From a virus: 50,241 nt of DNA. Below are positions 4,300 through 45,855 of this stretch, piece after piece; the stretch's first letter is position 1; each line of letters opens with the position of its first letter. A program made the position numbers and the translations under genes. The stretch is taken from the IMG/VR virus record IMGVR_UViG_3300008954_000078, positions 1-50,241 of that record; one strand, given 5' to 3'. The notes under the pieces were generated by a model. The model worked only from the letters and a program-made list of their open reading frames with translations, was not told the DNA's origin and did not search any database.

Positions 4300-7200
4300 C
4301 TATTTGTTGCATACGCCATAAGGGCAATTTGGAGGAAGACACTGCACCCAAATACATTCTCCAGACGGAAGGGTAATGTATGTATAGGCCACTCCGTTGA
4401 TTATTTTACTATAATCTTCATTGAATGTTTGTCTGGTACAAACAATACAACCATCTGGAGGGTAACAATCTTGATGGTCTTCACAGACCGAATTGTCTCC
4501 ATTGTATGTTCCATAGTTTAGAGAACAAGAGTCTGAATCTGTTATATAACACCAAGGTTCTTGATTTACACAACATGCTCCAGTTTGAGTTCCTGGTTGA
4601 TGACATTCAGTATCATCTTCTAGTGTATCGCATAAATTGCCAGCACCCTTCCATGTTCCAAGTAAAACTGTATCGCATTCAAATTGAATGGTATCAACAC
4701 AACTAGGAGTTCCATTTATTCCACCACAACATGCACCCAAAGCACATGGGTCGGAATCACAATTCGCAATATGTGATAAAGATGTTCCCGTACATGAACT
4801 AGGCAACACATCAGAACATCCGCCGGTATATATTCCACCTGTCTTTTCACAACATGCGAAAGTATAGTCGGTGCAATCACCGCACTCATTTTCAATAGAA
4901 TCCAGTGGATTATTACAACAAGTCCAATCGGATGTACAAGTCGAATCTCCATGACAGCAGACTCTATCTGGGCAAGAGTCAGAACAACTATTAGATTCAT
5001 TCCAAAGACCGCCGCATAGTAGGCACTGTGTTTCTTCAAGTATTCGGCATTCTCCTACACCCAAGCAACATTGTCCTGTAGGAATTGAAGTATCGCATAG
5101 TGTTGTGGCCGCACAGGTATTTGAATCGTCCCATTGTCCTTTACCATTTGTATCACAACTACAATTCCATTCAGTTAAGTTATCATAACAAGTTGTTTCG
5201 CTTGTGCAACACGAACCCGTTCTATTCCCACAATCATTATTAATACAACTTCCGTTTGCAATGAAGTTATTTGGATTAGAACAATCACCTATTGTTGCAT
5301 TTCCGTCTTGACAATTTTGTGAACCACCATAACAACCATTAGCGGAGCTGGCATCCTCACAGCATATTCCATACTCAATAGGAGAGCATGGAGTGCCATC
5401 AGCACATTGTCCTTGCGAGCATTTTGTTGTTCCATCACCACAGTACACTCCACCATGTTGCATACTACATTGATTTTCAGTTACATCTGTTGTACAACTA
5501 CCACTACCGTAACAACAAGCACCTGTTGGTTCTGTAGTATCACATAAACCACCAATACAAAAACCTTGATTACAATCTGTTGTATTATCGCCACACCAAG
5601 TTCCAAGACAGTTACTCTGAGTAACATCTGTTATACAAGTTGTATCTGTACAACAAGCACCTGTTGGTTCTGTAGTATCACATCCACCACCAGTACAAGA
5701 ATCTTGATTACAATCTGTTGTATTATCGCCACACCAAGTACCAGAGCAATTTGCTTGTATGTCGTCTGTTGTACAAGTTGTACCATTACAACACGCACCT
5801 GTTGGTTCACCACATGTTATTTGTGAGCAAGTCATTCCATCATGGAACACTCCACCACCATTACTGTTATCAATATCCCAACAATCTACTGCGTTTGTAT
5901 CATCCACGCAAACACCTTTATTTGGATTACAACACGCACCCCTACCAAAACAAGACTCTTCGCACATCGGTCCAGAACCTTCTGGATGGAAACCGCAATA
6001 AGTACAAGTTTCTGGATGTAGATTGCAATCACACATTTCATGACCGGCCACCAAAGTATCGCAAAGCGATTCGTCTCCGTTGGTGAAACATTGGGGGTTT
6101 GGATTATTGGTCAGGCCGATAATATAACAACACTTATTCGGGCCCGAAAGGCACGGAGTCTCGCATTCAACTGGCTCTCCACTGCATGTAATATCTTCTC
6201 CTCCACATCCACAACACCCCGCACATGCCTGACCCCCCCCGGGGTCGCCACAAGAGCAATGACATGGTGTCCAACAATCTCCAATGTCATTGTCGCCGCA
6301 AGATTGTCCTAAACTATTAATACAATCCGTATCGATGGGATTATTTGGAAGCCATTGACCATTCCCATTCATCCAACAAGGACAACGCAATGCTGGGTCT
6401 GTTTCGTCAAACTCCAGGCACTGTGGATTCTGTCCGTTTGGACCTATATCACATTGTGGTGTAGTTCCAGAACTACCAGTATCACAAAACGGAGGTTGAA
6501 CTAAAGCAGAACCTTGACTACAATTGTACCCAAGTGTTTCGGGTTGTTGAATACAACAAGTAGATAAATTTGCCCAATATTCGCTTGGAATGTTATCACA
6601 TTGGTCATCATTAACATCACCCGGACATAAACCACAATCAAGATTACCATTGGAGCAATCTAGAGGAATCCACTTGCAAGGTTCAGGGCCGCACTCACAA
6701 CTACCGTCAGTACATTCTGTCGGAATAGTCCCACCATTGCACCTATACATACACTGCTCTGCGGTACTATATAAACATTGTGTTTCGCCCAAGACGGTAA
6801 GACCATCGCAACAAGTTCCAAACTGGATACCAGTACAAGATGGCCATTGGGGTATTACTTTACCAGTGTCATATTCACTAGTGCAATAACCACACGATTC
6901 TTCTTCACAACCCTCTGGGCAACATGGAGGTTTGGAATCGTCCCAATGAGAAGTTCCAGTAGATGAAAACTGGCCCATAAATTCACATTGTGCTTCACAT
7001 ATATCTTCATAACATCTCCAATTATATTGAGTTTCTACACAACATGTTCCTACTGGCTCCAATTCTTCAAATGCGCCTGGGCAATCGTTTGCGTTACAAT
7101 ACGATTCATGGCTTGTTCCACCATAAGTAGCACAATCTTCTGGTGAAATATTATCCAAACAGAAACAACTTAAACAGCAACTTGTTTGAGGCACATCGTC

Positions 7201-10200
7201 AGCAAGACAATTCGCACACAGATTTCCATAATCCCATCCAGCATTTTGGTCACACCACGCATACGCGCCTCTTAGACCACCTGTGAAGTCCTCACACGGA
7301 CCGTACATAATTTCACTACAGCCTTGTGGGTCATTAGGACTATTACATGGAATAATATAAGGAGGCAATTCACTATTATTTCTCGGTGCGTCTTCAGTAC
7401 ATGCCATATCTTTCATAAACCAATCGGGTCTTGCTGGGAATTGGTCGGGAGGAGTGCTTCCTCCAGTAATTAACGCAGTACAAATCTTTGCTCCTTGCAT
7501 TAATCTTGAGGCATCTGAAAGTGAAATGTTGTTTGCTTGGTCGGTTGAATATACACCATGAGTACAGAAACTATGTGCATCAGTTGTGAGTATACCATGT
7601 GTTGGATTTATATAACCCACCACGGTTTGGTCAAATCCAGGCAGAATCGCAGGGCACGCTGGTGGGTCCGCTGTACAATTTGGATAATCAAGAACACCAG
7701 TCCATGTGTTTGGATATCCTATGGCCTCCATAGCATCACATATTTTTGTACCACCACCAAGGCCACGGTCTGTTGCCTTAATGTCATCCCACAAACTTGC
7801 GAGTTCCGAAGAATTATTAGTATTAACTCTTTTAACATTTACATTTGTATTTGGAATCCACGCTTGAGTATTAAAGAATATTAGAGAGAAGAATACATCT
7901 CCTCTGTCAGCGAAAGCGGGTGACATACCAACAAGAGATTCACCAATTCCTTGCATTGCTTTATCAAACATTCCAGCCGCTATACTACCAGACACATCTA
8001 TTATGAATACTATATGTTCTGTTACTGAGGTTTGGCCTCTTTCGTCTCTGTCTTCTGGTTCATTTGCGCCAGGACAGCACGATGTTCCATCGCCATGGAA
8101 CACTCCATCATCATCTTCACATGCACTTCTGGATAAATTATCTTCACAACTTCCATCAGTATGGCAACACGCACCATATTCTTTTATACCACAAGGATCA
8201 CCGTCACATGTAGTATCATCTCCTTTATAAATTCCTTGCACATTGTCACAATCTGTTGATGTCATTATATCACAGGATTTTGCAGTACAACACGCACCTG
8301 TTGGTTCTAATGGGTCACCGCATAGGTCACAAGTTGTATCTATTCCTAACCATTCTCCACCACATCCTTCTTGGGTCGTTATAAAGCAACTTCCACTACT
8401 TAAACAACATGCACCAACATTTATATCTATATCACAGGCACAATCTACGGGGTTATCTCCCTCGCATTCTGTGTTTGGACCCATAAAGTTTCTTCCAGTT
8501 TGCGTACAAATGTCTGCGGTAGTTTTTTCACAAAGACCATCTCCACAACACGCACCAACATAAATGGTTGCATCACAGCAATCAACTTCACCACATATTC
8601 CATCAACTGCAATACCACCATAAATTAATTCACAAATGGTTGCACTCATTGGTGGTAGTTTTGTTTCTGGACGATTGGTGTCATAACTTCCTATACTATC
8701 ACCGATACAACTACCATCTTTACAACACGCGATAGGTGAGCAACAAGGACTTAAACAAAGTTCATCTCCACCATTTGTACAACCGGGACCATCACATTCT
8801 CCTGTGCATTGTCCTTCAGGATTGAATGAACCACCGAGAGCATTGCATTCTGTTACTGTAACATTTGAAACACATTCTTGACCAGCACCTCTAAGTGGTT
8901 CAGTTCGTGGTCTACCAGTATCACCGCCAGTTAAAGGCGTTCCTCCACTAAAGTAACCAGTACACACAGAACAAGGACCACAACATTCTGGATATGGCTT
9001 TCTGTTGGCTTGATCATATCCACAAGCACAACTTTCATCATCACTCCAACCATCGGGACATTCGCAACCTGCAATGGATCCACAGGGAGCATCTCCCAAG
9101 TAAACACCGCCCAATAATATACATTCTCTTCTTGGCCATCTAGATGCATATCCAACACAATTATTACCATTTTCATCACAATGGGGTAAGCAACAACATC
9201 CAAATGGACCCATTGCTTCTCCAACAAATGGATTATATGCATTTCCGGCGCCATATGTGTGAACTCCGTGTGTTCCTAATCGGGAGAGTCCACCAGGCAA
9301 ATTACAAACTTGCCTTCTAATTCTACATTCTGGGCAACCAGCACCACACTCTGAACCTAAATATGAAGGTCCTATAATAGTATCTGAATTACTATCGTCT
9401 CTGTACCAATTTGTGTTTGGAATAGGAACTCCATTATCATCCAAATCCCCACAGAACCCCCATTTTCTTGAAGGAGTACCAACATGAAGAGGATGAGTAC
9501 CCCAACTACAATTAGCATCTTCGACCAGAGCAGAGTGACACCACGGACTACTCCATTCTCTATCAAGTTTTACGCAGCCAGTATGTTCATCCCAACAAGA
9601 ACCAGCAGGACACATCATATCCCAGAAAGACATAATTACGGTAAATAGTGGGTCATATCCTCCAGTATCGACATGTGGTCCTTGAGCATCTTGCCAAGCA
9701 TAACTGGTAGTTGGAAAGCCGCAAGGACCCAATGAATCCCATATGGGCATGTTACTGGTAGTCCTAAAATCCTCGTGACTGGGAATACATGACTCTCCAC
9801 TCCACATCCCTTGACCATTTTCACAAGGTTCTAGATATTCTGAATCCCACATACCCTGTTCACAACTTGTTCCGGGACCCCACCATGTCCAATTTCCATC
9901 TTCTTCAAGACCTTGAAATCCTTGTACGCCAGGCAACGAATTACATTCTGGATATAGAGAAATTTCATCTGGGAAATTCTCATTCCAATTGGTGCATCTC
10001 TGTGGAATTCCAATGATTGTATCTACTGGGTCGTCATCATAATTCCCAAGCGAGCCTGGGTATGTGGGTGTTCCATTATATAATCCCCATTTATTTAATC
10101 TATCACAATTATGTTTTGTTGTTGTAAAACAAGCGGCCGGCGAATGTGGAACTCCTATACCACCACCGCCACAGTTATTACCAAACCACCACTCATCACA

Positions 10201-12147
10201 CCAATTGTCTCCAATAGCAGGATCATCTGGGTCAGATCCGTATTCAGTCCACGGATAGTTCCACTGATATGAAGTACAAGAACAACACGCGCCAGTTGCC
10301 TCTTCAATGCCAATGTCACAATTTTCTCGACAAACATTATCATCACAACATTCTTCATCAGATTCACAATCTGTATCGTCCTGACACCCACATGGTGGGC
10401 AACTATTATCGAGACATGGTTCTTTACAAAGACCACTACAACATATTTCAGAACCAGTACAGTATGTGTCATCACAACATTCAGGACATGGAGGGCAACC
10501 TCCATCACAACAGTTATCTGTGACACAGTTTCCACCACAACAAATTTCATCAGAACCGCAACTATTATCGTCAACACATTCTGGCACGAAACAAGAACTA
10601 CAAGGAATTCCAGAACCTAAAAATGCACCACCCAAAGATAGACATTGGAATAGAGTAGTAAATTGACACGAACCATCTGTCATACAACAAGCACCAGATG
10701 CATCAACACAACATGAACCAAACTCTTCTCCTCGTTCGTTTGTAGATTTCGCAGTATTAACTCCACATTCAATTTCTATAGGTTCATCTAATAATACTGG
10801 TCTTCCCCACTCATCTATTTCATAAAAATAATGAGTCCAGAAAGTACCACCAAAATAATCACATTCGGTAGCACCAATATTCGATAAACATACTCTTGTA
10901 CCTGCAAAATTGCCCCAATCACCACCTTCACTACAGCAAACACCACCAGCAGTTATACCACAGTTTTCTGCACAGGTTGCGAAAGGACTCCAATATCCAC
11001 CAGAACTTTCATCTGGAATTCCATCACCATCCAAATCAAATGGGTAATTATAATCTGGATTATTCGCACATTCTTCTGATGTAACATAATCTTTACAATT
11101 TAATTCATTTTCGTTGTCTAAGTAACAGCAAGAACCCAAACCATGTACAACTTCACATTCACTTGTTCCATATCCACGAACTGCGACATTTGCTTTCCAA
11201 CTTTTACCACCATCATGTGTTAAAAAATTAATAATATCTGTGCCGCAGGAGAAGTATAGGTCATGCTTGTCCATATAAACATTTTCTGGCCAATCCCAAA
11301 TTTCGTTGCCTTTAAGATGGACAGTAAAGTTAAATATTTCAATATCGGAAAATTCTCCAGTAAATCCTTTGATTCCTATAGGCGTTTCTACATTATAGAC
11401 ACCGCCTCTGCTCACATCAAGGTACATGCCAGCACCATCTCCAGATGTAGCACCCCAATTACCACCATCCCCCCACAGACGACCACCAGTTAAACCATAC
11501 CAAATTACATCACCAGTATCTTCACTGTAGAGTTCCATTGGCGGGACAGGTATAACAATTTCTTCTGGGTCATATGAAGCGTGTTTAGAGTTTCCAGTAG
11601 CATCAGTACCAAATATAATAACACCTTCATCTGAATAAGTTAAATTTGTGACATCTGCGCCTGTATCGGCACTAAGATATGCTACTCTTCCTGTTGTTGA
11701 TGAGTCTGCTGTACCACCTCTTTGCAAAATAACATTTCCACGAATACCCACGACTTCATCATTAGCGTATATTTTACCAAGAAGTGTTCCATCACCAGTC
11801 AATCCACGAAATTCAAAAGTAATTCCTTCTGTTACTTGTTTAAAAATTGCATAAGTAGTACCACTTATGTCTCTGTTGCGATATACACCACTCGCAGTTC
11901 CAGTAGCACCTGTGGGCCCACCAATATGGTCGATTGTAATTTCATTTCCGTCAGAAAGTGTTAATATTAAAGATTTACCAAAAGGTCTACCAGAAACAAC
12001 CCAATTTCCAGTTGCACCCGTTAAACCAGTTGCACCAATTGGACCAGTTGGTCCAGTAGGACCTGTACTTCCTGTTGGTCCTATAAGTCCAACAGGTCCC
12101 TCTTCTATTGCTGGTACTGTAACTGTACTGCTTCCAATTACTGGCAT
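4300..12147 (-). CDS. Giant collagen-tipped cysteine-rich fibre protein with vWA domain
   Basis: 2615 aa, the largest gene in the window. In order: residues ~16-48 are about ten Gly-X-Y triplets (GPTGSTGPTGPTGPIGATG), a collagen-like trimerising rod. Then comes a beta-rich stretch to ~300. From ~335 onward are dozens of cysteine repeats of the form GACC...C...T...C...GG.Y.GD.T.C, with roughly one Cys in ten residues by partial hand count. DLDGDGIPDE (~370) looks like a calcium loop. Residues ~525-610 carry C-x-DD-x-C...E.CC...C modules. Residues ~1372-1560 are a von Willebrand A domain: FIIDVSGS (DxSxS, ~1383), GGGTKI (~1466) and LTTDAHS (~1521) supply the MIDAS. More cysteine repeats run to the end. 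By context it is a baseplate-attached fibre or whisker. Internal 138-bp repeats and the length make recombination likely. Confidence 0.7.
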   Translation of the reverse strand: MPVIGSSTVTVPAIEEGPVGLIGPTGSTGPTGPTGPIGATGLTGATGNWVVSGRPFGKSLILTLSDGNEITIDHIGGPTGATGTASGVYRNRDISGTTYAIFKQVTEGITFEFRGLTGDGTLLGKIYANDEVVGIRGNVILQRGGTADSSTTGRVAYLSADTGADVTNLTYSDEGVIIFGTDATGNSKHASYDPEEIVIPVPPMELYSEDTGDVIWYGLTGGRLWGDGGNWGATSGDGAGMYLDVSRGGVYNVETPIGIKGFTGEFSDIEIFNFTVHLKGNEIWDWPENVYMDKHDLYFSCGTDIINFLTHDGGKSWKANVAVRGYGTSECEVVHGLGSCCYLDNENELNCKDYVTSEECANNPDYNYPFDLDGDGIPDESSGGYWSPFATCAENCGITAGGVCCSEGGDWGNFAGTRVCLSNIGATECDYFGGTFWTHYFYEIDEWGRPVLLDEPIEIECGVNTAKSTNERGEEFGSCCVDASGACCMTDGSCQFTTLFQCLSLGGAFLGSGIPCSSCFVPECVDDNSCGSDEICCGGNCVTDNCCDGGCPPCPECCDDTYCTGSEICCSGLCKEPCLDNSCPPCGCQDDTDCESDEECCDDNVCRENCDIGIEEATGACCSCTSYQWNYPWTEYGSDPDDPAIGDNWCDEWWFGNNCGGGGIGVPHSPAACFTTTKHNCDRLNKWGLYNGTPTYPGSLGNYDDDPVDTIIGIPQRCTNWNENFPDEISLYPECNSLPGVQGFQGLEEDGNWTWWGPGTSCEQGMWDSEYLEPCENGQGMWSGESCIPSHEDFRTTSNMPIWDSLGPCGFPTTSYAWQDAQGPHVDTGGYDPLFTVIMSFWDMMCPAGSCWDEHTGCVKLDREWSSPWCHSALVEDANCSWGTHPLHVGTPSRKWGFCGDLDDNGVPIPNTNWYRDDSNSDTIIGPSYLGSECGAGCPECRIRRQVCNLPGGLSRLGTHGVHTYGAGNAYNPFVGEAMGPFGCCCLPHCDENGNNCVGYASRWPRRECILLGGVYLGDAPCGSIAGCECPDGWSDDESCACGYDQANRKPYPECCGPCSVCTGYFSGGTPLTGGDTGRPRTEPLRGAGQECVSNVTVTECNALGGSFNPEGQCTGECDGPGCTNGGDELCLSPCCSPIACCKDGSCIGDSIGSYDTNRPETKLPPMSATICELIYGGIAVDGICGEVDCCDATIYVGACCGDGLCEKTTADICTQTGRNFMGPNTECEGDNPVDCACDIDINVGACCLSSGSCFITTQEGCGGEWLGIDTTCDLCGDPLEPTGACCTAKSCDIMTSTDCDNVQGIYKGDDTTCDGDPCGIKEYGACCHTDGSCEDNLSRSACEDDDGVFHGDGTSCCPGANEPEDRDERGQTSVTEHIVFIIDVSGSIAAGMFDKAMQGIGESLVGMSPAFADRGDVFFSLIFFNTQAWIPNTNVNVKRVNTNNSSELASLWDDIKATDRGLGGGTKICDAMEAIGYPNTWTGVLDYPNCTADPPACPAILPGFDQTVVGYINPTHGILTTDAHSFCTHGVYSTDQANNISLSDASRLMQGAKICTALITGGSTPPDQFPARPDWFMKDMACTEDAPRNNSELPPYIIPCNSPNDPQGCSEIMYGPCEDFTGGLRGAYAWCDQNAGWDYGNLCANCLADDVPQTSCCLSCFCLDNISPEDCATYGGTSHESYCNANDCPGAFEELEPVGTCCVETQYNWRCYEDICEAQCEFMGQFSSTGTSHWDDSKPPCCPEGCEEESCGYCTSEYDTGKVIPQWPSCTGIQFGTCCDGLTVLGETQCLYSTAEQCMYRCNGGTIPTECTDGSCECGPEPCKWIPLDCSNGNLDCGLCPGDVNDDQCDNIPSEYWANLSTCCIQQPETLGYNCSQGSALVQPPFCDTGSSGTTPQCDIGPNGQNPQCLEFDETDPALRCPCWMNGNGQWLPNNPIDTDCINSLGQSCGDNDIGDCWTPCHCSCGDPGGGQACAGCCGCGGEDITCSGEPVECETPCLSGPNKCCYIIGLTNNPNPQCFTNGDESLCDTLVAGHEMCDCNLHPETCTYCGFHPEGSGPMCEESCFGRGACCNPNKGVCVDDTNAVDCWDIDNSNGGGVFHDGMTCSQITCGEPTGACCNGTTCTTDDIQANCSGTWCGDNTTDCNQDSCTGGGCDTTEPTGACCTDTTCITDVTQSNCLGTWCGDNTTDCNQGFCIGGLCDTTEPTGACCYGSGSCTTDVTENQCSMQHGGVYCGDGTTKCSQGQCADGTPCSPIEYGICCEDASSANGCYGGSQNCQDGNATIGDCSNPNNFIANGSCINNDCGNRTGSCCTSETTCYDNLTEWNCSCDTNGKGQWDDSNTCAATTLCDTSIPTGQCCLGVGECRILEETQCLLCGGLWNESNSCSDSCPDRVCCHGDSTCTSDWTCCNNPLDSIENECGDCTDYTFACCEKTGGIYTGGCSDVLPSSCTGTSLSHIANCDSDPCALGACCGGINGTPSCVDTIQFECDTVLLGTWKGAGNLCDTLEDDTECHQPGTQTGACCVNQEPWCYITDSDSCSLNYGTYNGDNSVCEDHQDCYPPDGCIVCTRQTFNEDYSKIINGVAYTYITLPSGECIWVQCLPPNCPYGVCNK
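5521..5796 (-). repeat. Two tandem 138-bp (46-codon) repeats inside the giant gene
   Basis: The phrase acctgttggttc recurs at 5521, 5659 and 5797, giving an exact 138-base period. The units encode GACC..TTC.TD..Q.NC.GTWCGDNTTDC and end in CDTTEPT; a third, more diverged unit follows downstream on the minus strand. Long stretches of each unit are identical at DNA level (for example the bases encoding CGDNTTDCNQ). That indicates recent duplication rather than ancient repetition. Confidence 0.85.
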
Positions 12148-37339: not shown

Positions 37340-37774
37340 ATGCCTTATAAAACTAAATACAAACCCAAAAATGTGGAAAAATATATTGGAAATCCCAACA
37401 ATATAATATGTAGGTCGTTATGGGAAAGAAGAGTATGTCGTTATTTGGACGAAAATGTAAATGTTCAGAAATGGGGAAGTGAAGAAATAATAATTCCGTA
37501 TTATTCCCCAGTAGACAGAAAAAATCATAAATATTTTCCAGATTTTATTGTAAAGATGAAAAACGAAGATGGTTCTTTTAAAACTGTAGTAATAGAAGTA
37601 AAACCAAAAAAACAGACAATTCCACCCAAGAAGCCGAAAAGAAAAACCAAAAACTATATCAATGAATGTATCAGATACACCATAAATCACGAAAAATGGG
37701 AATCTGCAAAAGAATTTTGTAAAAAACGAAAATGGAAGTTTATAATTTTAACAGAAGACGATATTCTTCCATAA
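37340..37774 (+). CDS. 4: T4 gp4-like head completion protein
   Basis: 144 aa (T4 gp4 is about 150 aa). Landmarks: ICRSLWERRVCRYLDEN, KWGSEEIIIPYYSPVDRKNH, KYFPDFIVKM and VVIEVKPKKQT. The E (in SLWER), D (PDF) and ExK (IEVK) follow the PD-(D/E)XK nuclease layout noted for this TnsA-like family; gp4 is needed to finish filled heads before tail joining. The C-terminus WKFIILTEDDIL is also family-typical. It is the first gene of the plus-strand late block, with a late promoter 18 bases upstream. No good Shine-Dalgarno is visible between promoter and ATG. Confidence 0.88.
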   Translation: MPYKTKYKPKNVEKYIGNPNNIICRSLWERRVCRYLDENVNVQKWGSEEIIIPYYSPVDRKNHKYFPDFIVKMKNEDGSFKTVVIEVKPKKQTIPPKKPKRKTKNYINECIRYTINHEKWESAKEFCKKRKWKFIILTEDDILP

Positions 37775-37811: not shown

Positions 37812-38333
37812 ATGCCGATAACATCCACACTACAACAACAGGGACATCACAGAACTATAAATGAATTTAAAAAGATGTTCAAAAATTTTGCATCTCCAGC
37901 CAGATATGCTGTAGATTTTTTCGGTGGCTCCCAAGTATTTCCAGAAAGTATAACACTTCCGGCAAGAGGATTCTCCTTTTTTACAGATGCACAATATGGT
38001 GCTATTAGGCAATATCCATACCGAAGACAATTTAATACAGAAATTGTAATGACTATTCCTGTGTCTGAAGACCAAAGCCAAAGAAAATTTTTTGAAAATT
38101 GGATGAATGGGTTAATTCCAAGTAACGAAGTCGCGATACCAGTGAATACAAGTCCCAACACTGTTAATATGACAATTTCTTGCTTAGACCACTTTGATGT
38201 GCCTCAAGGAACATTTTCTCTGTATGGAGCATTTCCAAGTTCTATTATACCATCAAATTATGGATATGGTATGCTAAACGAAACTGCAAAACTACAGGTA
38301 ACAATAACTTATCGTAAATATGACTACAAATAA
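37812..38333 (+). CDS. Tail-tube-fold protein (gp19 family or tube initiator)
   Basis: 173 aa, close to T4 gp19 (163 aa). Pattern: N-terminal helix (NEFKKMFKNFASPARYAVDF), LPARGFSF, YPYRRQFNTEIVMTIPVSE and FFENWMNG, then a beta-rich second half ending LQVTITYRKYDY. This F..W and L.VT..Y layout is that of T4-like tube proteins. It may be the main tube subunit or, given its place beside gp4 and the chaperone, a tube-related baseplate protein; the main tube gene of T4 normally sits next to the sheath gene, which is not in this window. CATAAATA at 37770-37777 is one base off the late box and could add a promoter. Confidence 0.7.
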   Translation: MPITSTLQQQGHHRTINEFKKMFKNFASPARYAVDFFGGSQVFPESITLPARGFSFFTDAQYGAIRQYPYRRQFNTEIVMTIPVSEDQSQRKFFENWMNGLIPSNEVAIPVNTSPNTVNMTISCLDHFDVPQGTFSLYGAFPSSIIPSNYGYGMLNETAKLQVTITYRKYDYK

Positions 38334-38348
38334 TAAAGGATTTATAAT

Positions 38349-39071
38349 ATGAGTATAGTAGATATTTTAAAAGAAGCGACTCCAAAATATGAATTGATAT
38401 TACCTTCAACTGGAGAAAGCAAAACATTTAGACCATTTTTGGTAAAAGAAGAAAAGATTCTATTAATGGCAAAAGAATCATCTGACGAATCATCAATAAT
38501 GAATGCCATTAAGCAATTAATCGGTGCATGTTTTGATGATATTGATAACCTTGAAGATTTGCCTATGTTTGATGTTGAATACATGTATCTTCAATTAAGA
38601 GCAAAATCTATTGGGGAAATATTAAACCCAACTATTATTTGCCCAGAAACACAAGAGAGAATACAAAAAGAAATAAACATTGAAGATATTACAGTACAAA
38701 AGGATAAGGAACACACAAACGAGATTCAAATATCAGACGATATCGTTGTCACAATGAAATACCCTTCACTTCATATGATGGAAGAAATCCAACATACTAA
38801 ACCAAAAAATGAAGAATATACCGTTCCTCTGTTTTATGTGATTATTAATACTATTGATAAAATTGAAACTAAAGAAGAAACTTTAGATTGTAGTATAATT
38901 CCAAGAACAGAATTGGAAGACTTTGTAAATAATCTTACTAAAGGCCAGTATGAAAAGATAATTCAATTTTATTCAACTGCTCCGAAAGTAGAATATAATT
39001 TAGAATATGAAACATCAGATGGAGAAACGAGGGAAATTACACTTAAAGGGCTTCTGGATTTTTTCAAATAG
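38349..39071 (+). CDS. gp26/gp51-family baseplate hub / tail assembly chaperone
   Basis: 240 aa in the zero frame. Landmarks: KTFRPFLVKEEKILLMAKESSD (38-59, given in two parts: KTFRPFLVKEEK and ILLMAKES), LIGACF, LPMFDVEYMYLQLRAKSIGE and a closing LKGLLDFFK. These mark the Pfam T4_baseplate family (annotated gp26 or gp51 in T4-like phages). It is acidic, soluble and lies just before the tape measure, the usual place of a tail assembly chaperone. Its last codons TTT TTC AAA TAG form a slippery site followed by a hairpin (separate entry), so a fraction of ribosomes should extend it to 306 aa. Start ATG follows AAAGGA. Confidence 0.85.
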   Translation: MSIVDILKEATPKYELILPSTGESKTFRPFLVKEEKILLMAKESSDESSIMNAIKQLIGACFDDIDNLEDLPMFDVEYMYLQLRAKSIGEILNPTIICPETQERIQKEINIEDITVQKDKEHTNEIQISDDIVVTMKYPSLHMMEEIQHTKPKNEEYTVPLFYVIINTIDKIETKEETLDCSIIPRTELEDFVNNLTKGQYEKIIQFYSTAPKVEYNLEYETSDGETREITLKGLLDFFK

Positions 39072-39089
39072 GGCTCAGCCATCTGAGCC
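39059..39089 (+). promoter_or_regulatory. Programmed -1 frameshift signal (slippery heptamer plus hairpin)
   Basis: Heptamer T TTT TTC at 39059-39065 is in the correct zero-frame phase (GAT TTT TTC AAA TAG). Six bases later a hairpin begins: GGCTCAG (39072-39078), loop CCAT, CTGAGCC (39083-39089), a perfect 7-bp stem extendable by a G-T pair. After a -1 slip the frame reads TTT TTT CAA ATA GGG and stays open to 39265. The hairpin has no following T run, so it is not a terminator. Confidence 0.8.
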
Positions 39090-39268
39090 TAGTAGGATAT
39101 TACACCTTAAACTTTCAACTAATGCAACATCACAAATATAGTTTAACAGAATTAGAATCAATGATTCCTTGGGAAAAAGAAATCTATGTTGCACAATTGA
39201 TAGAGTATATTGCGGTAGAAAACGAAAAAATAAGAGATAAGATGGCAGAAAGAAACGCAAAAGGATAA
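39065..39268 (+). CDS. Frameshift extension of the tail chaperone (T-like half)
   Basis: After slippage at 39065 this frame adds 67 residues to residue 239 of the upstream gene. The first part is QIGLSHLSLVGYYTLNFQL, then from the ATG codon at 39122 MQHHKYSLTELESMIPWEKE and IYVAQLIEYIAVENEKIRDK. The LTELESMIPWE.EIY element resembles the second half of tail assembly chaperones. The ATG at 39122 has no Shine-Dalgarno before it, while the frame is open right through the upstream stop region. That favours production by frameshifting rather than independent start (which would give 48 aa). It ends 7 bases before the tape measure ATG. Confidence 0.75.
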   Translation, partial: QIGLSHLSLVGYYTLNFQLMQHHKYSLTELESMIPWEKEIYVAQLIEYIAVENEKIRDKMAERNAKG

Positions 39269-39275
39269 ATAATAT

Positions 39276-40808
39276 ATGGCGCTTCCAGAAATAGCACTAT
39301 CGGCTTTAGGATTGTCACCACCAATGGGTGGAATGGGTGGAATAGGCAATAAACTTGGTAGCATTTTTGGTGGTGGAAACAATATAGAACAACCTCCCAA
39401 ACCCAAAGAATCTCAAAGTCTACTTAGTAAGGGCGTAGATGCTCTTTTTGGTGATGACTCTAAGAAGTTTGAAAAATTAGAAATTGAAAAATTAGAAATT
39501 GACAGCGCCAAAATCGGAAAACTTATAATAGAAAGTATGACCGAACAAAAGGGCGACTTTGAAGAGTTAGAGGATTCTAAATTATCAGAAGAAGGAATGC
39601 AAAAAACAGTTCCTCAATCAGAAGAAGAAGGAATGCAAAAAACAATTCCTCAAGAGGAAAGTGAATCCATAATAGACCCCTTACAAGGAATATCAGATAC
39701 CAATAATGAAGTAACTGAAATACTGGGTGGAAGTTCCGCAACTGGTGGGGGTGTTGGTGATATATCTTTTGATACAGAAACAATTTCAGGACAATTGGGC
39801 GATATAGACAATACTCTTAATAAACCAGAAGACCCCATTGATTTTGCATTGTTTGAAGATTTGCTTGGAGGCGATAGAGGATGGATTGACCAAATAGTTG
39901 ATGGAATACTTAAACCGTTTAGTATGCTGTGGGGAACAATTACAGATATTGCAAAGGGTGCTTGGACAGTAATAACAGATGCCGTAATTGGATTATGGAC
40001 AGGCGTAACAGATATCGTAAGTGGAGCATGGACAGGCATAAAAGATATCGCAAGTGGAGTATGGGAAGCAGGAAAAGATGTTATGTCTGGCCTTGATAAA
40101 TCTGCTAGAGCATGGGCTGAAACTAGTGCAACCATAGCCACTGAGATAGCAGAATCAGTTGCAAGAATAGGTATTGAAATTGGACAAGCGATAAGTGGAG
40201 AGTTGCAAGCATGGGCTGATACAATGACCGATAATTTAGTAAAAGTTACCGACCAAATCGGTGGTTTTATGCAGGGTGTTAGTGAAGAAGGAAGAGGTTG
40301 GATGGATTCCATTAGTGGCGGGATTTCAGGTATTATTCACGGCGAAGGTGACACAACTATAAACATGGAAACAGGCGAACTTATATCCGCACTTGAAAAG
40401 TCAACGGAAATAATATACGGTTGCTTGATTGACATAAAAGGAATACTTTTAGATTGTTGTGGTATGGCCCCAAACCTTGCACTTGAAGAAGAAGAGCCTG
40501 CGGCCGCAATAGTAGAAGAAAGTACCGCATCCGAAGAAGCAAAGATGCTTGAATCAAATGCCAAATTAAAAGCACAAGAACAAGAATCAACTTCTGGACT
40601 TCAGGGAGAAAGAAATACATCTGGCGCATTCACAAGACCACCACAAAAACGAGGACCATATCCGCCCAGTCACCCAACCATGGCCAGCGGTAATAACAGA
40701 GAACGATATACACATGTTCCTCCTCCTATGATTGCCCCCAGTACAAGAAATTTAAATGAATTTGCAACATACCAAATCATACCTCAGTGGCAAAGAATGC
40801 TTGGATAA
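39276..40808 (+). CDS. Tape measure / tail length protein
   Basis: 510 aa (T4 gp29 is 590 aa). A Gly-rich start (PPMGGMGGIGNKLGSIFGGG) is followed by Glu/Lys repeats (KFEKLEIEKLEID; SEEGMQKTVPQ and EEGMQKTIPQ as a direct repeat). Residues ~205-275 are a hydrophobic, Trp-containing repeat of about 11 residues (GAWTVITDAV, GLWTGVTDIV, GAWTGIKDIA, GVWEAGKDVM), then long helices to ~360. This is typical of tape measure cores. The C-terminus is Pro/Arg-rich and ends EFATYQIIPQWQRMLG. It directly follows the chaperone frameshift pair, the canonical order. It is the last gene before a strong terminator. The assignment to gp29 is by position and composition. Confidence 0.72.
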   Translation: MALPEIALSALGLSPPMGGMGGIGNKLGSIFGGGNNIEQPPKPKESQSLLSKGVDALFGDDSKKFEKLEIEKLEIDSAKIGKLIIESMTEQKGDFEELEDSKLSEEGMQKTVPQSEEEGMQKTIPQEESESIIDPLQGISDTNNEVTEILGGSSATGGGVGDISFDTETISGQLGDIDNTLNKPEDPIDFALFEDLLGGDRGWIDQIVDGILKPFSMLWGTITDIAKGAWTVITDAVIGLWTGVTDIVSGAWTGIKDIASGVWEAGKDVMSGLDKSARAWAETSATIATEIAESVARIGIEIGQAISGELQAWADTMTDNLVKVTDQIGGFMQGVSEEGRGWMDSISGGISGIIHGEGDTTINMETGELISALEKSTEIIYGCLIDIKGILLDCCGMAPNLALEEEEPAAAIVEESTASEEAKMLESNAKLKAQEQESTSGLQGERNTSGAFTRPPQKRGPYPPSHPTMASGNNRERYTHVPPPMIAPSTRNLNEFATYQIIPQWQRMLG

Positions 40809-45765: not shown

Positions 45766-45776
45766 ATTTTCTCCAA

Positions 45777-45849
45777 CACACCTGGCAGGAATCGAACCTG
45801 CGTGTATCAGTTTAGAAAACTGATGCGTTATCCACTACGCTACAGGTGC
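45777..45849 (-). tRNA. tRNA-Arg (anticodon UCU)
   Basis: 73-nt cloverleaf on the minus strand. Acceptor GCACCTG pairs with CAGGTGT (one G-U), the anticodon stem is TCAGT/ACTGA with loop TTTCTAA, and the T arm holds GGTTCGATTCC. Anticodon TCT decodes AGA, a codon used heavily in these AT-rich genes. CCA is not encoded. It is embedded in an operon of small genes and would be cut from the mRNA. Confidence 0.93.
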
Positions 45850-45855
45850 AGACAA

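Follow-up and report, generated by a model that had tools for sequence, protein, structure and literature searches.

The stretch of viral DNA analyzed here (the window; an IMG/VR record of 50241 bases) very probably encodes, at 38349-39071, the tail assembly chaperone of a marine T4-like phage (a myovirus of Kyanoviridae type), and its sequence points to production of this protein in two forms by a programmed -1 slip. Most ribosomes would stop at the TAG at 39069 and yield a short, gp26-like form of 240 aa, while a minority, held by a stem-loop, would slip back by one base as the P- and A-site tRNA-Phe re-pair from TTT TTC to TTT TTT. The slipped ribosomes would pass the stop and complete a long form of 306 aa, whose additional C-terminal (C) domain would correspond to the last part of gp51 in phage T4. 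If lambda G/GT is taken as the model, the short form may coat the tape measure and the C domain may bring in the tail tube protein. The features of the locus are as follows.

37812-38333 (+): tail tube gene (gp19-like), upstream neighbor; phrog_45 E 1.5e-16, PF06841 only E 0.11
38349-39071 (+): zero frame, predicted short form, gp26-like tail assembly chaperone, 240 aa; PF12322 T4_baseplate E 1.8e-55, phrog_150 E 2.1e-55, model residues 1-88 similar to 2ob9
39045-39050 (+): AAAGGG, near the position of the Shine-Dalgarno (SD)-like stimulator of relatives and weak in the window
39059-39065 (+): slippery heptamer T TTT TTC, in phase
39059-39268 (+): -1 frame extension (gp51 C-terminal domain), completing the predicted long form; phrog_634, conserved from residue 1
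39069-39071 (+): zero-frame stop TAG, read from the sequence
39071-39090 (+): probable stimulatory stem-loop, seven Watson-Crick pairs and one G-U pair, loop CCAT; MFE -13.9, z -3.6, p 0.01 against synonymous shuffles, covariation in 11 picked loci
39276-40808 (+): probable tape measure protein, 510 aa

Anatomy and identity of the chaperone gene

The gp26-like zero frame ends in the codons GAT TTT TTC AAA TAG, so that the heptamer falls in phase. A spacer of 6 nt, AAATAG, contains the zero-frame stop and separates the heptamer from a stem formed by GGCTCAG (39072-39078) and CTGAGCC (39083-39089), which the pair G39071-U39090 extends to 8 bp. A recheck of the sequence thus bore out the preliminary description in its four anatomical points, namely the heptamer in zero-frame phase, the six-base spacer with the TAG between heptamer and hairpin, the perfect 7-bp hairpin at 39072-39089, and a -1 frame open from the slip site to 39268. 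Because the -1 frame opens only at 39047 (it runs to the stop codon at 39266-39268), it overlaps the end of gp26 by only about 8 codons, and the heptamer lies within these. Among the in-phase codon junctions of 25 window genes (n = 14162), T TTT TTN occurs at 7, the present site included, which corresponds to 0.004 per 8-codon overlap; the figure for any X XXY YYZ is 0.05. A 7-bp stem with a loop of 3-8 nt that starts 5-9 nt downstream is found at 120 of 41211 window positions (0.003). A chance origin of the slip site in the window was rejected on the values for heptamer and stem.

The chaperone gene directly follows the tail tube gene. Downstream, an ORF starts at 39276, 7 bases after 39268, as the preliminary description had it; the identity of that ORF as the tape measure gene is plausible but unproven, because it is based on position and weak PHROG matches (best E 8.8e-9). 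In HTVC008M another ORF lies between the chaperone gene and the tape measure candidate. Elsewhere in the window we noted a head closure protein (gp4-like) with a TnsA-like endonuclease domain (37340-37774; PF08722 E 9.2e-21, phrog_218), a 2615-aa ORF at 4300-12147 with only a weak, sub-threshold collagen-repeat match, adjoining ORFs of 910 and 1043 aa without a match (all three are perhaps tail fiber or adhesin genes), and a tRNA-Arg (TCT) at 45776-45850 (-), which the VPALA phage carries too.

Both parts of the window protein are homologous to the T4 gp26/gp51 family (PF12322, phrog_150/634), the -1 product matching phrog_634, "baseplate hub assembly catalyst", at E 3.5e-24. In two-sequence blastp comparisons, the match of T4 gp51 extended over nearly the whole predicted frameshift product (E 5e-7) and that of T4 gp26 over the zero-frame part (E 3e-6), and a C-domain profile built from the related loci found T4 gp51 at E 1.9e-11. 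By these alignments T4 gp51 is a full-length homologue of the predicted product. The T4 layout, with a separate full-length gene 51, is absent from the window, where the C domain occurs only in the gp26 -1 frame. On a tree, the window gp26 groups with those of HTVC008M, P-SSM4, and S-CAM4 (support 99/96). An NCBIfam search returned nothing useful. T4 gp26 and several divergent gp26 proteins contain CPxCG-like cysteine pairs that suggest a metal site; the window protein is without them.

Structure models were obtained for the zero-frame protein (pLDDT 93) and the C domain (pLDDT 78). With Foldseek, no PDB entry reached significance (best E 0.16; 2ob9 at E 2.6), and a profile search of PDB sequences gave no phage chaperone among 7 matches, the best being a helicase at E 0.019. 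VIA-align placed 3fgx (Z 8.1) and the HK97 tail assembly chaperone 2ob9 at the top, the latter over 87 residues of model 1-88 at Z 7.9, a value within the range that can reflect a common arrangement; 5ir0 followed at Z 6.2, then 4.6 and below. The resemblance of the zero-frame model to the HK97 chaperone supports, short of proving, a chaperone fold. Among viral models, the highest-ranking hits that carried a name were chiefly gp26-type "baseplate hub" proteins. Such database names, together with the weakness of the chaperone-fold match, would agree with gp26 and its extension being parts of the baseplate hub, as in the T4 annotation, rather than tail assembly chaperones. We hold this to be unlikely, since the gene is situated between the tail tube gene and the tape measure candidate, carries a -1 extension, and has a chaperone-like predicted fold, and since T4-like genes are called chaperones in the title of Vladimirov, Gautam and Davidson 2022. 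The proposal that this family is the T4-branch equivalent of the G/GT chaperones gains support from the gp26/gp51 homology, the conserved -1 frame, and the HK97-chaperone-like model.

Conservation and translation of the -1 frame

Viral contigs were scanned twice, with gp26 and with the -1 peptide; the top 80 loci of either scan, of which one was common to both, make up a set of 159. The window and 158 of these have both domains; the remaining locus, L005, ends inside gp26. Counting the 158 and the window, the C domain occupies the -1 frame in all 159 cases, with an in-phase T TTT TT[C/T/A] inside the overlap. None has a -1 frame stop between slip site and C domain; such stops had been named beforehand as refuting. 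The scan by the -1 peptide could favor loci that have the extension; among those chosen by gp26 alone (n = 80), the heptamer and the -1 C domain are present in 79/79 with the gp26 end present. The loci comprise 149 distinct junctions, or 80 clusters at 60% identity. Throughout these 149, the codon before TTT ends in T, as compared with 75% of Asp, 70% of Asn, and 56% of Ser codons in the same genes, and the first Phe codon is TTT, as compared with 77%.

Three routes into the -1 frame can be weighed against these data. In the first, the short downstream ORF would be a gene in its own right, with translation beginning at its own ATG or re-initiating behind the gp26 stop. This agrees with its separate name, "baseplate hub assembly catalyst", in 30/60 among the matches listed (of 575 matching records), an annotation that the frameshift reading would correct, and with the occurrence of TAATG or TGATG, in which the gp26 stop and an ATG overlap, in some of the named phages described below: 6/16 that bear the heptamer (V09, D484, PhiW-14, RHph_I9, XG4, YB07) and 4/7 that are heptamer-less (K355, K469, D495, PP35). 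In the near family, such an ATG is found at only 1/149 loci, with GTG or TTG in 8 more, and the window has none. Furthermore, conservation of the -1 peptide (FFRIxLSHDSLxNYYxTNF, followed by MQHHKYSL) sets in at the slip codon, and the usual ATG lies some 20 codons further on: the first ATG of the -1 frame is codon 20 or 21 (slip = 0) in 105/149 loci. An ATG precedes a conserved QH-like pair in 120/149 loci, and a 4-base SD core is present at 0/120 of these, in contrast to 134/147 gp26 starts of the same loci set; the window ATG at 39122 likewise lacks one. T4 gp51, finally, holds both domains in one chain. We therefore consider a separate gene very unlikely, and translation from an own start was rejected for the window on the missing SD core and the conservation from the slip codon. 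The preliminary statement that the short ORF has no ribosome site of its own holds for the conserved downstream ATGs; a stop-overlapping ATG is present in 10/23 named phages (L161, L163, L165, L172, L173, L176, L177, L178, L181, L184). An SD core precedes that ATG in 2/10 within the short stretch scanned, and because the ATG overlaps the gp26 stop, re-initiation may act beside or instead of frameshifting in these ten.

The second route is slippage of RNA polymerase on the T run, by which some mRNA would gain one U and so give the -1 frame. Runs of 7 or 8 T are present in 30/149 loci and would suit it, but 119/149 have only six T, the phase to the codons is fixed in 159/159, and the SD-like and stem signals described below would act on ribosomes and not on the polymerase. 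We judge this route very improbable; for the window it was rejected on the fixed codon phase, the ribosome-type signals, and the six T of most loci. The third route, ribosomal slippage at the heptamer, is the one that we favor.

Signals flanking the slip site

Upstream SD-like and downstream stem signals are under synonymous selection. The folding of the 45 nt that follow the heptamer was set against that of 200 shuffles in which the -1 protein is unchanged. It is stronger than the shuffles at p<0.05 in 41/149 loci (7.5 expected by chance), with a mean z of -1.15; as cluster means (50, 80, or 121 clusters) the z at the site is -0.96 to -1.11. Five control segments of the same genes (60 shuffles) have mean z of -0.13 to -0.57, and since 8-18 of 147-149 loci reach p<0.05 in them, the folding baseline lies somewhat above chance. 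An uninterrupted stem of at least 6 bp in the scanned range is found in 28/149 loci, 11 of these having it exactly 5 nt downstream of the heptamer. Of the features whose conservation across relatives the preliminary description had proposed to check, the heptamer and the -1 frame are universal in the near family and the stem is not.

Covariation was assessed in 11 loci picked for a short-loop stem, a choice by which the count leans toward pairing. In their aligned stem, 90.9% of cells are paired, and both sides have changed in 4/8 pairs. Paired cells, cells changed on both sides, and the covariation score all exceed the 500 shuffles and every slid register; in these picked loci, the number of pairs changed on both sides (45/500 shuffles as high) and that of further pair types (207/500) do not go beyond the shuffles. 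In L062 and L066 the stem pairs in another register.

On the upstream side, many relatives have GGAGG, GAGG, or AGGG at about -15 to -10 from the slip site, and the codon choice that creates these motifs is biased. At codon -6, the G-favoring choice is made in 55/97 Leu codons (26% elsewhere, p 5e-10) and 14/26 Val codons (12%); at codon -5, in 45/73 Glu codons (23%, p 7e-12) and 7/17 Arg codons (11%), with no effect for Lys and Gln at that codon. Restricted to Glu-Gly pairs, the G-favoring codon is used in 43/71 versus 23/88 (p 2e-5). Anti-SD pairing is better than in the shuffles on average (mean z -1.02), but only 21/149 loci reach p<0.05 on their own. SD strength and stem strength showed no trade-off (Spearman 0.11, p 0.17). 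In the window, anti-SD pairing of AAAGGG is no better than that of synonymous shuffles (duplex p 0.82), and the stem is therefore the likely helper there.

Distribution among phages and comparison with known systems

We analyzed 28 named records out of 690 phage records with a gp26 match: 23 of the frameshift type or heptamer-less, and 5 of the T4 type. Leaving aside the heptamer-less clade and the T4 type, 16/16 named phages have T TTT TT[C/T/A/G] with a -1 extension (V09, D484, AsFcp_4, PX29, CC2, PhiW-14, DLP6, RHph_I9, HTVC008M, P-SSM4, Ochrobactrum OC, Milchi, XG4, OLIVR6, S-CAM4, and YB07). By the classification of their records, these belong to Kyanoviridae, Straboviridae (Schizotequatrovirus, Angelvirus, Emmerichvirinae), Pootjesviridae, and others, so that the signal is present in Straboviridae other than T4 and more widely. 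T4, Thanatos-1, Aeromonas 31, FL15, and RB43 instead have a separate full-length gp51, and of the records with a match to T4 gp51, 1334/1339 span 80% or more of its length. Gene 26 lies on the opposite strand in T4, Thanatos-1, Aeromonas 31, and FL15. In RB43 (L204, 1201-2494) the long gp51 gene and a short one of gp26 type share a strand and are arranged in tandem, the T4 pair being divergent.

A third group keeps the -1 frame without a heptamer: S8, PP35, and phiMAM1 of the Ackermannviridae, Vibrio phages K355, K469, and D495, and VPALA. Their junction is reduced to NTT TTY NNN stop, and 15/15 IMG/VR Ackermann-type contigs (10 distinct junctions) agree, having the -1 frame and no heptamer. 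No X XXY YYZ is found near the stop, and the extension is kept, in L180, L181, L182, L183, L172, L176, L177, and L185-L199. In the S8, PP35, phiMAM1, and VPALA records the extension has no covering CDS. The six of these seven phages that were placed on the tree form one clade (100/98); a scan of viral contigs with the K355 protein found no relatives. Loss of the heptamer, which the preliminary description had named as evidence against frameshifting, is thus seen in 0/159 of the near family and 0/16 of the other named phages, but in 7/7 named phages and 15/15 contigs of this distant clade. According to a 2016 review, almost every -1 shift needs at least a Z_ZZN site (PMC5009743); a slip of one tRNA on T_TTY in this clade would agree with that statement.

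These distributions lead us to a tentative history, which we put forward as somewhat less than probable: frameshifting would be ancestral in the T4/Ackermann superfamily, the T4 lineage would have replaced it by gene duplication, the Ackermann/Vibrio clade would have kept the -1 frame but lost the slip of the first tRNA and now use a single-tRNA T_TTY slip or, in some members, re-initiation at the stop-overlapping ATG, and the helper signal would shift across the family between a dnaX-like upstream SD and a downstream stem. The case for an ancestral frameshift comes from its spread over families and not from a rooted tree; the root is unplaced, and the T4-type rows have long branches. The two genes of T4 look derived, because the frameshift signal occurs in other T4-family members and beyond. 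Heptamer, tetramer, and duplicated gene form a natural series for testing the decay of frameshift sites.

The preliminary description knew of no account of a frameshift in the gp26/gp51 family, a claim that now appears doubtful. The 2016 review calls G-T frameshifting widely conserved "except T4" (PMC5009743). According to the PRFect paper, certain T4-like phages instead have one short gene and one that is longer and fused; it refers for this to Vladimirov, Gautam and Davidson 2022, a work with T4-like chaperone genes in its title (PMC10885494). A 2025 paper on phage Adele credits the same work with polyT slippery sequences in T4-like phages (PMC12846349). By that title, the chaperone assignment of gp26/gp51 is already in print. 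Searches of the open literature listed no paper on the gp26/gp51 frameshift site in cyanophages. As far as we have seen, the selection on SD-like and stem signals and the heptamer-less clade are new.

Among other phage families, the locus of the Vandenendeviridae phage Adele is described as having a -1 frame, an invariant GTTTTT motif, and an extension without stops (PMC12846349). By this locus description, Adele shares the -1 frame and the polyT motif with the phages studied here. Many of our relatives also resemble E. coli dnaX, in that GGAGG or GAGG ends about 10 nt before the slip site. The dnaX frameshift site has an internal SD at similar spacing. The genes are unrelated, however; the heptamer here is T-rich and not A AAA AAG, and the window is without the SD element.

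The closest parallels in layout are lambda G/GT and P2 E/E+E'. There too, according to the review, a -1 slip close to the end of a single gene gives a short and a long form, and only the long form has the C domain (PMC5009743). In T4, gp26 corresponds to the zero-frame part and gp51 to the entire predicted long form. Two separate genes are present in T4 and its nearer kin, whereas the window has one gene with a -1 extension. The lambda heptamer differs from T TTT TTC, and many T4-like relatives, in contrast to lambda and P2, have an SD-like element upstream.
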